A DNA stretch of 23,127 nt from a virus. This document shows, piece by piece, positions 3,071-6,291 of the stretch. The notes beneath the pieces were generated by a model. That model ran no database searches. It was not told where the DNA came from and saw only the letters and a list, made by a program, of their open reading frames with translations. The position numbers and the translations under genes were made by a program. Position 1 is the first letter of the stretch. Each line of letters starts with the position of its first letter. Location of the stretch: positions 1 through 23,127 of the IMG/VR virus record IMGVR_UViG_3300029263_001017; one strand, written 5' to 3'.

Positions 3071-3943
3071 ATGAGCGATTTTGCAGATTTTAAGCGTAAG
3101 TCCCGTTCCAGTTCCAATCTTGATGAACTTTCAAAGAAGATTCAAGCAACATCAGAAAAGAAGTCCTATAAGGATGATCGATTCTGGAGACCTGAGTTGG
3201 ATAAAGCAAGTAATGGTTATGCCGTTATTCGTTTCCTTCCAGCACCTCCCAATGAAGATCTTCCTTGGGCAAAGCTCTACACACACGGATTCCAAGCTCA
3301 GGGTGGGTGGTTCATCGAGAACTCTCGTACAACCTTTGGTGAGAAGGATCCCGTTTCAGAGATGAATTCAGAACTCTGGAACAGTGGTACTGAAGCCGAT
3401 AAGGATATTGCTAGAGCGCGTAAGCGTAAGCTCCAGTACATCTCCAACATTCTGGTGATCAGTGATCCTGCTAATCCACAGAATGAAGGTAAGATCTTCC
3501 TCTACAAGTTTGGTAAGAAGATCTTCGACAAGATTCAGGAAGCAATGGAACCTGAATTCGCTGATGAAAAGGCAGTCAATCCCTTTGAACTCTGGGATGG
3601 TGCCAACTTCAAGCTCAAGGTTCGTAAGATCTCTGGCTTCATCAACTATGATAAGTCCGAGTTTGACTCACCTAGTGCTCTGTTCGATGGTGATGATGTC
3701 CAGCTTGAAGAGCTTTGGAAGAAGCAGTACTCGCTCACAGCGTTCACTGATCCTTCTAACTTCAAGTCGTATGACGAGCTTAAGCAGCGTCTTATGGATG
3801 TTGTTGGTGATGATATCCGTTCTAACGATGGAACGAGCGCACCGACCATTCAGGAGACCTCAGACACACTTGAGAGTAAGTCTGAAAGCGTTGCAGAAGA
3901 GACTGATGCTCTTGACTACTTTGAGAGACTCGCTAAGGATTAA
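3071..3943 (+). CDS. 32: Single-stranded DNA-binding protein gp32
   Basis: Encodes 290 residues (T4 gp32 is 301). gp32 coats ssDNA cooperatively in replication, recombination and repair. The N-terminal basic KRKS (residues 8-11) matches the motif used for cooperative binding. The core has FWRPELDKASNGYAVIRFLP and ILVISDPANPQNEGKIF, both clear gp32 signatures. The C-terminal ~60 residues are acidic and Ser/Thr-rich, as in the T4 tail that recruits partners. T4 holds zinc with one His and three Cys; here the His is kept (H72) but the Cys positions read Ser85, Asp93 and Ser96, so the zinc site is lost. Codon use is unlike the neighbours: by my count 28 of 29 Lys are AAG and no Leu is TTA. The stop shares TTAA with the convergent gene. 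Confidence 0.95.
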   Translation: MSDFADFKRKSRSSSNLDELSKKIQATSEKKSYKDDRFWRPELDKASNGYAVIRFLPAPPNEDLPWAKLYTHGFQAQGGWFIENSRTTFGEKDPVSEMNSELWNSGTEADKDIARARKRKLQYISNILVISDPANPQNEGKIFLYKFGKKIFDKIQEAMEPEFADEKAVNPFELWDGANFKLKVRKISGFINYDKSEFDSPSALFDGDDVQLEELWKKQYSLTAFTDPSNFKSYDELKQRLMDVVGDDIRSNDGTSAPTIQETSDTLESKSESVAEETDALDYFERLAKD

Positions 3944-4416
3944 GCGTATCCATAGGGGTTGCCTCTGGTTCTCAGATCATTATTTCCCCGCAAATTTGAT
4001 ACCCCGTTAGATGCACGAGGAGTTGTTCCGCCAGGTTCGGTGGGCAACTCCTCTGTGTCTACTTCAGATGGGAATCCGAGAGAATCTACATCAAATAAGT
4101 CACTATCCTTGACTGGGGTGCTGTCATTGTATTCTGATAATGGTTGTCCGCCCATCATATCAGTCTTAATCTCTTGATAGGCTTGATTTGATGAGATGAC
4201 CGCAGACTCTAATGCAGAGACATCTTGTATGTTGGGTTGATATGCTAGAGTTTCCTCTTCGAGACTTGGACCAAGAGAAGAATAGAAGTTAGGTGTGACC
4301 ATCGGAGTCCTATCAGACATTAAATCAGAAAAAGACACCACAGGATCTATAGCCAAATTAGCTGCGGCACTTTTAAGATCAACATTTTCTTCTTCTTCGA
4401 CTTTCTTTTTATCCAT
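3940..4416 (-). CDS. Acidic hypothetical protein after gp26
   Basis: Encodes 158 residues with a highly charged N-terminus (MDKKKVEEEENVDLKSAA) and a long acidic, Ser/Pro-rich, probably disordered body. The C-terminus turns basic and polar (NNDLRTRGNPYGYA). No family is recognised. Its ATG overlaps the stop of the gp26 frameshift extension as TAATG, with AAAGGG (minus strand, 4425-4430) 8 bases upstream, so it is translated with the tail-assembly genes. Its stop overlaps the gp32 stop in a shared palindromic TTAA. In many tailed phages the tape measure follows the frameshifted chaperones; this protein is far too small to be one, so the tape measure must lie elsewhere. Confidence 0.7.
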   Translation of the reverse strand: MDKKKVEEEENVDLKSAAANLAIDPVVSFSDLMSDRTPMVTPNFYSSLGPSLEEETLAYQPNIQDVSALESAVISSNQAYQEIKTDMMGGQPLSEYNDSTPVKDSDLFDVDSLGFPSEVDTEELPTEPGGTTPRASNGVSNLRGNNDLRTRGNPYGYA

Positions 4417-4616
4417 TATCCTATCCCTTTAGATGCCATTTTTTGTTGTGTTTTCATATTTTGATCTTTTATAAAATCATTGAGCATACCAATATATACT
4501 TTTCTTTCCCATGGTATCATATTTTCTAACTCGGATAAGTTATACCCGTGCATCTGCATCAATTGAAAATTTAGATAATAAAAACTTGGCAGATTTACAT
4601 GGCAAAAAGTAAGATA
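4416..4616 (-). CDS. gp26 C-terminal extension reached by -1 frameshift (gp51-like position)
   Basis: In the -1 frame relative to gp26, an open reading frame continues for 66 codons from 4616 to the TAA at 4418-4416. It reads YLTFCHVNLPSFYYLNFQLM, then ENMIPWERKVYIGML and a basic tail ending ASKGIG. This looks like real protein: aromatic and hydrophobic pattern, then a PWER-type motif followed by a helix, resembling the C-terminal segments of tape-measure chaperone frameshift products in other tailed phages (from memory, not searched). It has no start codon with a ribosome binding site; internal ATGs (LMQM) lack any Shine-Dalgarno. A slip at the T7 run would make a 274-residue gp26 fusion. 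Alternatives are a separate gene 51 homologue with a cryptic start, or a homopolymer sequencing error in a single fused gene. Confidence 0.7.
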   Translation of the reverse strand, partial: YLTFCHVNLPSFYYLNFQLMQMHGYNLSELENMIPWERKVYIGMLNDFIKDQNMKTQQKMASKGIG

Positions 4617-5239
4617 AAAAAATCCTCTGCGCTACTTAACTTGATCCGTCGCGTGGTGTCATTTGTAGTGTAATCAATAACATACAGGTAATGATATAGA
4701 GTTTTAATTTTATCTCGTATTTCATTATTCAGACTAACAGGAAACGAGTCTATTATTTCTTGTTTTTCATTATCAGAAATGCTATCAAAATCAATTTTTT
4801 CTTCCATTGTCTCAACAGAACTTATTGCAGAAATTGTTTCAGAAAAGTCTGAGGGCATTTTGATATGTACAATCAGATCTCCTGATTTTATTGCACTTTC
4901 TTTGCATGTGCCAATTAGTTCTACATCAGTGATATCTACGTCTATCTCAATCTTTTCATTTGTTTTTGGGCAATTGAAGGAAGTTTTAAATTTTTCCCCG
5001 ATAGATTTTTTCCTGAGTTCTAAAATTAAATGGATTATGTCAGTTTCTGACAAATCTCTCATTTTCATATTAGTCTTATTTTCTAGAATTTTTAGTAGAG
5101 TATTGTAACCATCTTTATTGCTTCCGGTTTCCTTTGCAGCAATAATATTTTTTTCTTCTTTTACTATGATGGGAGTGAACTCAACTGTTGTGTTCTTGAC
5201 GGGTAACTTTGTTGTATAAACTGGCAAATCTATTTTCAT
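4595..5239 (-). CDS. 26: Baseplate hub assembly protein gp26 (T4_baseplate family)
   Basis: Encodes 214 residues (T4 gp26 is 208). gp26 is needed for T4 baseplate hub assembly and may act as a tail or tape-measure chaperone. The N-terminal TVEFTPIIVKEEKNIIAAKE corresponds to a conserved block of that family, followed by LLKILENKTNMKMRDLSETD and LILELRKKSIGE, which are also typical. AGGA lies just before the ATG, and the start follows the upstream stop by 2 bases. The last in-frame residues are AEDFFILLFAM; the two Phe codons form part of a T7 slippery run from which a longer fusion product could arise. Its place downstream of a tube-fold protein gene fits a tail assembly unit. Confidence 0.8.
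   Translation of the reverse strand: MKIDLPVYTTKLPVKNTTVEFTPIIVKEEKNIIAAKETGSNKDGYNTLLKILENKTNMKMRDLSETDIIHLILELRKKSIGEKFKTSFNCPKTNEKIEIDVDITDVELIGTCKESAIKSGDLIVHIKMPSDFSETISAISSVETMEEKIDFDSISDNEKQEIIDSFPVSLNNEIRDKIKTLYHYLYVIDYTTNDTTRRIKLSSAEDFFILLFAM
4616..4622 (-). promoter_or_regulatory. T TTT TTT slippery heptamer for -1 frameshifting
   Basis: The minus strand reads GAT TTT TTT ATC in the gp26 frame. This is a perfect X XXY YYZ heptamer of seven T residues in which both Phe tRNAs can re-pair after a one-base backward slip. It lies 18 bases before the gp26 stop codon, exactly where the -1 frame opens into a further 66 codons. I see no strong stem-loop or pseudoknot downstream, so frameshifting could be modest; transcriptional slippage on T7 is an alternative. 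Confidence 0.65.
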
Positions 5240-5241
5240 AA

Positions 5242-5829
5242 TTATGTTCCTATTGCACCACCGGACCCACTACTGGTTCCGATAAGTTGTCCTTTAGCTT
5301 CCAGATCAAAAGCTCTATACACAAACTGCACACTGAATACCATGGGAGCAAAGTCTTCCACAGGTTTCAATTCAATTGGATACAGAACTCGTGGGTAAAC
5401 TTCATAGAAGATCCACTTAATATTATTATTATCACCATTGACAATTTCAAGTTGATTACCCGACACTCTTTCCTTGTAATAAGCTTGTGGTCCTTGGGGT
5501 TGTACTACGGCATTGCACCATTTATTCATCACATCAAACATAGAATTCTCAACCTCATTTTCCATATAAAATGTAACAAATAACTGTTGATTCCAGTCTT
5601 TTCGCATAGGAAAGGTTTTAATATTTCCACCAACACCAAGTTCTTTGGTAGTGGCTATATCCCAGCCCGGAACTCTTGCGGCAAATACAGGTATGAAATT
5701 GTTTGTGTAATTGAAGATACCAGTATTAATAGACAGGTTAACATGGAATCTATTATGCTTCATCAGTCCACTACTATAAAGACCATTGTCCTTGATGAGA
5801 TTGTCTACATTTGTTCCTTCTAGAGTCAT
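5242..5829 (-). CDS. Tail-tube-fold protein (gp19 paralogue, gp54-like)
   Basis: Encodes 195 residues. Aligned by eye to the T4 tail tube protein gp19, the pattern matches along the whole length: HNRFHVNLSI at the first strand, FAARVPGW, then KTFPMRKDWNQQLFVTFYME, a MFDVMNKW helix, VYPRVLYPIELKP and the last strand MVFSVQFVYRAFD. It ends in a flexible Gly/Ser tail. T4 has tube-fold proteins that cap the hub (gp48, gp54). Since gp48 is encoded nearby at 6312, this may be the gp54-type tube initiator, or an additional hub protein; the major tube gene normally lies near the sheath gene. ATGA overlap with gp4 upstream shows co-translation. Confidence 0.6.
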   Translation of the reverse strand: MTLEGTNVDNLIKDNGLYSSGLMKHNRFHVNLSINTGIFNYTNNFIPVFAARVPGWDIATTKELGVGGNIKTFPMRKDWNQQLFVTFYMENEVENSMFDVMNKWCNAVVQPQGPQAYYKERVSGNQLEIVNGDNNNIKWIFYEVYPRVLYPIELKPVEDFAPMVFSVQFVYRAFDLEAKGQLIGTSSGSGGAIGT

Positions 5830-6275
5830 TTTAGTTGGTTCCCTTTAAAAAGTTCGTTTTCGGTTAGAATAGTAAATTCCCATTCGTTATCATTACAAAC
5901 TTTTTTTGCCGCTTTCCACTTTGCTTCATTTACGGCATACGTCTTCATATTTAGGTCGTAGGTCTTGGTTTTTCTCTTTTTAATTGTCGGTGGTTTTGTC
6001 TGCTTATATGGCTTGACTTCAATCAAAAAAGTTTTAATTTCACCAGTCTTTGTTTTAATTTCCGCGAGAAAATCGGGGTAATACCGATGCATTTTATTAT
6101 CAACGGGGGATAGGTACGGAATCACCACTTCTTCACTTGCCCAACGGAGCACGTTTATATTTTTATCTAGATACTTACACATTTTTCTTTCCCATGTAGA
6201 TCTACAGACAATTTTGGTTGGATTGCCAATATATTTAGAGCTATTCTCTGGAATGTACTTCGTTTTATATGCCAT
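5826..6275 (-). CDS. 4: Head completion nuclease gp4
   Basis: Encodes 149 residues (T4 gp4 is 150). gp4 acts after packaging to complete heads. The sequence matches T4 gp4 well: MAYKTKYIPENSSKYIGNP, RSTWERK, then IPYLSPVDNKMHRYYPDF, FLIEVKPYKQTKPP and WKAAKKVCNDNEWEFTILTE. The E of WERK, the D of YYPDF and the IEVK triad fit a TnsA/restriction-type nuclease core (E...PD...ExK). I chose the ATG at 6275 because it yields the MAY start seen in T4; an in-frame ATG at 6284 would add three residues. No Shine-Dalgarno is visible, suggesting a leaderless or weakly initiated mRNA. It is first in its minus-strand unit and divergent from gp48. Confidence 0.85.
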   Translation of the reverse strand: MAYKTKYIPENSSKYIGNPTKIVCRSTWERKMCKYLDKNINVLRWASEEVVIPYLSPVDNKMHRYYPDFLAEIKTKTGEIKTFLIEVKPYKQTKPPTIKKRKTKTYDLNMKTYAVNEAKWKAAKKVCNDNEWEFTILTENELFKGNQLK

Positions 6276-6281
6276 AGCATA

Positions 6282-6291
6282 CATATATATG
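6282..6291. promoter_or_regulatory. Palindromic CATATATATG in the gp4/gp48 divergent gap
   Basis: The gap between gp4 and gp48 is only about 36 bases and must hold, or lie next to, start signals for both directions. CATATATATG is a perfect 10-base palindrome here. Its TATATAT core could serve as a degenerate late-type box read either way, though it does not match TATAAATA well. AT richness makes chance possible. Confidence 0.25.

Follow-up and report, generated by a model that had tools for sequence, protein, structure and literature searches.

The window, a 23,127-nucleotide stretch of viral DNA, very probably contains a gene from which programmed −1 frameshifting yields two tail-assembly chaperones, one short and one fused, as judged by comparing its sequence with those of its relatives. 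The short form (TAC-N, 214 aa) is a gp26-like protein, here called gp26, encoded on the minus strand at 4595-5239 and recognised from PF12322, phrog_150 and an AlphaFold2 model. The two frames, the heptamer and its conservation, and the homology of the proteins are direct observations. The minus-strand 3′ end of gp26 reads GAT TTT TTT ATC TTA CTT TTT GCC ATG TAA, in which the slippery heptamer T_TTT_TTT (4616-4622, minus strand), of the X_XXY_YYZ form, is in phase for a −1 slip and separated by 18 bases from the gp26 stop codon; our re-reading, at 4622-4616, agrees with the original prediction. From the heptamer, the −1 frame is open to a TAA at 4418-4416 and encodes FF followed by 66 more codons. 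This extension (TAC-C, the cyanophage ‘gp51’) occupies 4416-4622 on the minus strand, including the two slip-site Phe codons and the TAA, and the six gp26 codons past the heptamer (4598-4615, minus strand) are also read in the −1 frame. Translating both frames predicted products of 214 aa (short form) and 274 aa (fusion); the 66-codon extension and the two product lengths that had been claimed were both recovered on recomputation. The TAA of the extension was also said to overlap the next ATG, and it does so by one base (TAATG).

In this AT-rich window, the T7 run is unremarkable by chance (8 seven-T matches found vs. about 18 expected), and its significance therefore rests on conservation of its phase and position among relatives. 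We collected IMG/VR loci through the extension protein alone, not through gp26; the first query contained both slip-site Phe residues, and the second was a pattern far downstream. T_TTT_TTN was present at the same junction in 107/108 IMG/VR loci before any filtering. At the sole locus without it (L105:1870-1910), ATTCATC stands there, upstream of an intact extension; this is probably an assembly or recombination break, and the locus was excluded from the kept junctions. The IMG/VR loci and named phages together gave 114 distinct junctions, all of which carry T_TTT_TTN (85 TTTTTTC, 26 TTTTTTT, 2 TTTTTTA and 1 TTTTTTG). In 93 of these 114, gp26 terminates one codon past the slip site; in the window's clade, it terminates six to eight codons past it.

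A further indication of slipping comes from the bases that the heptamer shares with ordinary gp26 codons. The codon preceding the first Phe ends in T at every one of the 114 junctions (AGT, GAT, AAT, TCT or GCT, for Ser, Asp, Asn or Ala), and the first slip-site Phe codon is TTT in 114/114, compared with 75% elsewhere. With rows treated as independent, the chance of the invariant wobble T is about 1e-24 and that of the invariant TTT about 1e-14; over 14 lineages below 60% identity, the same two probabilities are about 3e-3 and 2e-2. Because the wobble T is decoded in the ordinary frame before any slip, no protein product requires it, and among the explanations considered only a slip accounts for its invariance.

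Constraint within the window's clade pointed the same way. Across 16 distinct members, AGC GCA GAG GAT TTT TTT was almost invariant, with a heterozygosity of 0.02 compared with about 0.50 for other conserved codons, and in the overlap (4598-4615) nucleotide heterozygosity was lowered at all codon positions. In extension codons 9-20, which separate the gp26 stop from the earliest ATG of the extension, variation was 0.27, 0.14 and 0.39 at −1-frame positions one, two and three. Variation here follows the −1 frame, and the stretch before the first ATG thus looks translated, though no ATG could start it. The original prediction had proposed aligning relatives and testing for synonymous constraint at the junction; the alignment showed the T-run and the extension conserved, and the last six pre-slip codons proved almost frozen in the window's clade.

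We also examined the extension as a protein. The 68-residue extension matched phrog_634, ‘baseplate hub assembly catalyst’ (E 7e-21), in the profile search that had been suggested for it. It also matched phrog_150 at positions 231-277, and gp26 matched the same family at positions 9-236 (E 3e-27), so one known family spans both frames. A tblastn search with the extension matched 494 phage records, predominantly from phages of Synechococcus and Prochlorococcus; among the matches listed, the alignments begin at residue 1, which is the slip site. In our model, the extension is predicted to be all-helical. In the public annotation of loci L002-L013 and L016-L018, the extension is either missing or entered as a gene of its own (‘baseplate hub assembly catalyst’) whose start varies, and most of the annotated extension starts in those records are probably wrong.

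These annotations correspond to a second reading, in which a small gene of its own (gp51) encodes the extension and is translated from its own start codon or by reinitiation after the gp26 stop. Annotators assign it a start of its own in many records, most databases annotate it in this way, and in 55/114 distinct junctions an ATG is found at extension codon 6, just beyond the gp26 stop. However, the annotated starts vary between records and some records annotate none, and sequence conservation already sets in at the heptamer, before any of these starts. In the window, as originally claimed, the extension has no start codon with a ribosome binding site: its first ATG is codon 22, without a Shine-Dalgarno-like sequence, and the duplex energy before it is +3.0 kcal/mol, compared with −5.1 before gp26 and −4.6 before the gene that follows. 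The GGAGG found in relatives, 9-10 nt before the slip site, is too distant from the ATG to serve it, and reinitiation leaves the invariant wobble T unexplained. We consider a separate gene very unlikely. An independent start for the extension was also tried as a candidate feature and rejected, as it has neither a Shine-Dalgarno sequence nor a conserved start.

Still less probable is transcriptional slippage at the T run, in which some transcripts of a mixed mRNA population would encode the fusion. Runs of seven Ts in the window and of eight in one relative would suit this reading, but 88/114 distinct junctions have six Ts only, a length at which polymerase slippage would not be efficient; a longer run is not maintained, and the constraint falls on the phase of the heptamer. 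Finally, although homopolymers are error-prone in single contigs, a miscounted run (six or eight Ts in reality, giving one continuous frame), which had been named as grounds for refutation, is scarcely credible, since cultured phages and metagenomes of independent origin all have this two-frame layout and stop codon, and most relatives have T6C and no long homopolymer.

For the preferred reading, programmed frameshifting, the stimulatory signals are less documented than the slip site: GGAGG and a hairpin in many Kyanoviridae-type relatives, and AGCGCAGAGGA in the window's clade. Such elements, whether an upstream Shine-Dalgarno-like sequence or a downstream structure, often accompany programmed frameshifts without being indispensable. 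About 70/97 relatives outside this clade have a GGAGG or GAGGG whose end lies 9-10 nt upstream of the heptamer. Anti-Shine-Dalgarno pairing there far exceeded that expected from synonymous resampling (0/100 resamples as strong), and the Glu codon there is GAG in 70/85, compared with a background of 27%. Downstream of the heptamer, half of these other relatives beat shuffled sequences by two standard deviations in folding. In a P-SSM2-like subset, a hairpin begins about 5 bases past the heptamer; single sequences fold strongly, and covariation in the hairpin was greater than in shuffled and slid controls, mostly from one stem position (U-A, A-U, G-C). RNAalifold returned no consensus hairpin over 52 ATG-type relatives, and the hairpin is thus claimed for a subset only.

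The window's clade showed no convincing downstream RNA structure (mean z of 0.5 and −0.3). It has no GGAGG at 9-10 nt, and a GAGG lies just 1 nt from the slip site. The only candidate stimulator in this clade is AGCGCAGAGGA (4623-4633, minus strand), which abuts the heptamer on its upstream side and is near-invariant: it is identical in 15/16 clade members, and the remaining one has C for A. One possibility, which we regard as doubtful, is that the window's clade swapped the GGAGG and hairpin of cyanophage-type relatives for this 11-nt element touching the slip site. If true, AGCGCAGAGGA would represent a kind of frameshift signal not yet described. Lineage-specific stimulators of this kind are open to direct test.

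The gp26 protein itself belongs to PF12322, T4_baseplate (E 3e-27; 96.1 bits, curated cut-off 24.5), and its AlphaFold2 model has a mean pLDDT of 91. Among viral models, its matches were for the most part baseplate hub proteins of T4 type (gp26/gp51). In the PDB, a plain Foldseek search with the gp26 model gave no significant match. We realigned the gp26 model to Foldseek's top chains, of which 993 were ranked. Residues 1-82 of the model aligned with Bacillus subtilis YqbN (3klu, Z 6.4, rank 1 of 993), which we take to be a phage tail chaperone relative, and with the HK97 tail assembly chaperone gp13 (2ob9, Z 5.3, rank 4), although Z scores of 5-6 are modest and those below 8 may reflect common arrangements. 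In these models, gp26 therefore bears a weak resemblance to YqbN and the HK97 tail chaperone, confined to about 80 N-terminal residues of the gp26 model; unlike in the HK97 gp13 and YqbN matches, gp26 has about 130 further residues lying outside them.

We compared both frames with T4 genes 26 and 51. The fusion profile matched T4 gp26 at positions 10-238, ending at an FF motif (RGLKEFFELL), and T4 gp51 at positions 23-281. The extension profile matched gp51 of T4, Aeromonas phage 25 and Proteus phage PM2, and no gp26. In a sequence search of the PDB, both profiles returned chance matches only. T4 gp26 and gp51 both match PF12322, and T4 gp51 also matches phrog_634; the gp51 proteins of T4, Aeromonas and Proteus are thus fusion-like proteins in a single frame. 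In other words, T4 gp26 is homologous to the short form and T4 gp51 to the whole fusion, but the T4 genes are separate, lie on opposite strands and have no slippery heptamer, with GAG TTC TTT at the equivalent place in T4 gp26. From these profile matches, T4 encodes its short and long forms as two genes, which would take the place of frameshifting; the suggestion that T4 gp26/gp51-type proteins share the slip mechanism therefore does not hold for T4. A short form and a C-terminally extended form with a common N-terminal part, predicted here from one gene, are realised in T4 as two. The abstract of the 2022 study by Vladimirov et al. is said to propose genes 26 and 51 as T4's two forms, and reportedly also proposes frameshifting in several T4-like groups. 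Vibrio phage EniLVp02 (L013:1990-2190), listed as Straboviridae, has the frameshift arrangement GAT TTT TTC GTC TGA; T4, Aeromonas 25 and Proteus PM2, of the same family, use the two-gene form.

All through the window's clade, a gp4 head-completion-like gene (phrog_218), a tail-tube-like gene and the chaperone gene follow one another in this order (window 5242-6284, minus strand). The tail-tube-like protein (5242-5829, minus strand), encoded upstream of the chaperone gene, matched the phrog_45 tail tube family with E 5e-6. On the other side, a fast-evolving 158-aa protein (3940-4416, minus strand), whose start overlaps the stop of the extension, is acidic and gave no Pfam match; its relatives, of about 150-240 aa, were found only within the window's clade among the loci compared. 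This ORF occupies the tape measure position of lambda-type phages. Tail-assembly chaperone genes usually lie between tail tube and tape measure genes, though this is no defining trait. No tape measure gene was recognised adjoining the chaperone gene in the window's clade; at another locus (L044), a 924-aa ORF at 3422 is possibly a tape measure gene in that position.

We infer the slipping itself, its efficiency and the chaperone role from these comparisons, as follows. Most ribosomes would read gp26 to its stop and produce the short form, TAC-N. Some would slip back by one base at U_UUU_UUU, the two Phe tRNAs pairing again with UUU UUU, and would then read 66 codons in the −1 frame to give the long, fused form, TAC-NC. 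If these proteins act as lambda gpG/gpGT do, the tape measure would be coated by the N-terminal part and tail tube subunits would be brought in by the C-terminal helical domain, with neither chaperone form retained in the virion. The two systems, compared by arrangement, are alike in having a −1 slip near the 3′ end of the short chaperone gene that fuses a C-terminal domain; they differ in the T-rich slip site found here and, in the window's clade, in that no tape measure gene was recognised immediately downstream. T4 needs gp51 for assembly, and its particle lacks the protein; gp51 and gp26 both figure as chaperones of hub assembly (PMC3004832).

It seems that the main point was already published, in a paper on the tail-assembly chaperones found in T4-like phages (Vladimirov, Gautam, Davidson 2022; doi 10.1016/j.virol.2021.11.003). 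In later papers, this work is credited with a poly-T slip site in T4-like TAC-N genes (PMC12846349) and with the finding that some T4-like phages have one short and one fused gene (PMC10885494). A 2016 recoding review describes G-T type frameshifting as conserved in long-tailed phages ‘except T4’ (PMC5009743). The locus resembles the T4-like chaperones, as these later papers cite them, in its short and long forms and poly-T slip site, and the window's clade differs from them in its T7 run, in having six codons from slip to stop rather than one, and in having no upstream GGAGG or hairpin. Since slipping in T4-like phages is already published, the locus is a well-supported new example and not a new phenomenon. 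Comparative evidence strongly favours the frameshift originally predicted, but not its sharing by T4, and the idea is not new. What is peculiar to the window's clade is the upstream candidate element, AGCGCAGAGGA.

Database entries continue to show a pair of distinct baseplate genes whose start codons are arbitrary. The locus and its relatives indicate that much of the T4 superfamily carries a frameshift signal, and that the T4 ‘hub subunit’ gp26 and ‘hub assembly catalyst’ gp51 would be the counterparts of two products made from one frameshifted gene.
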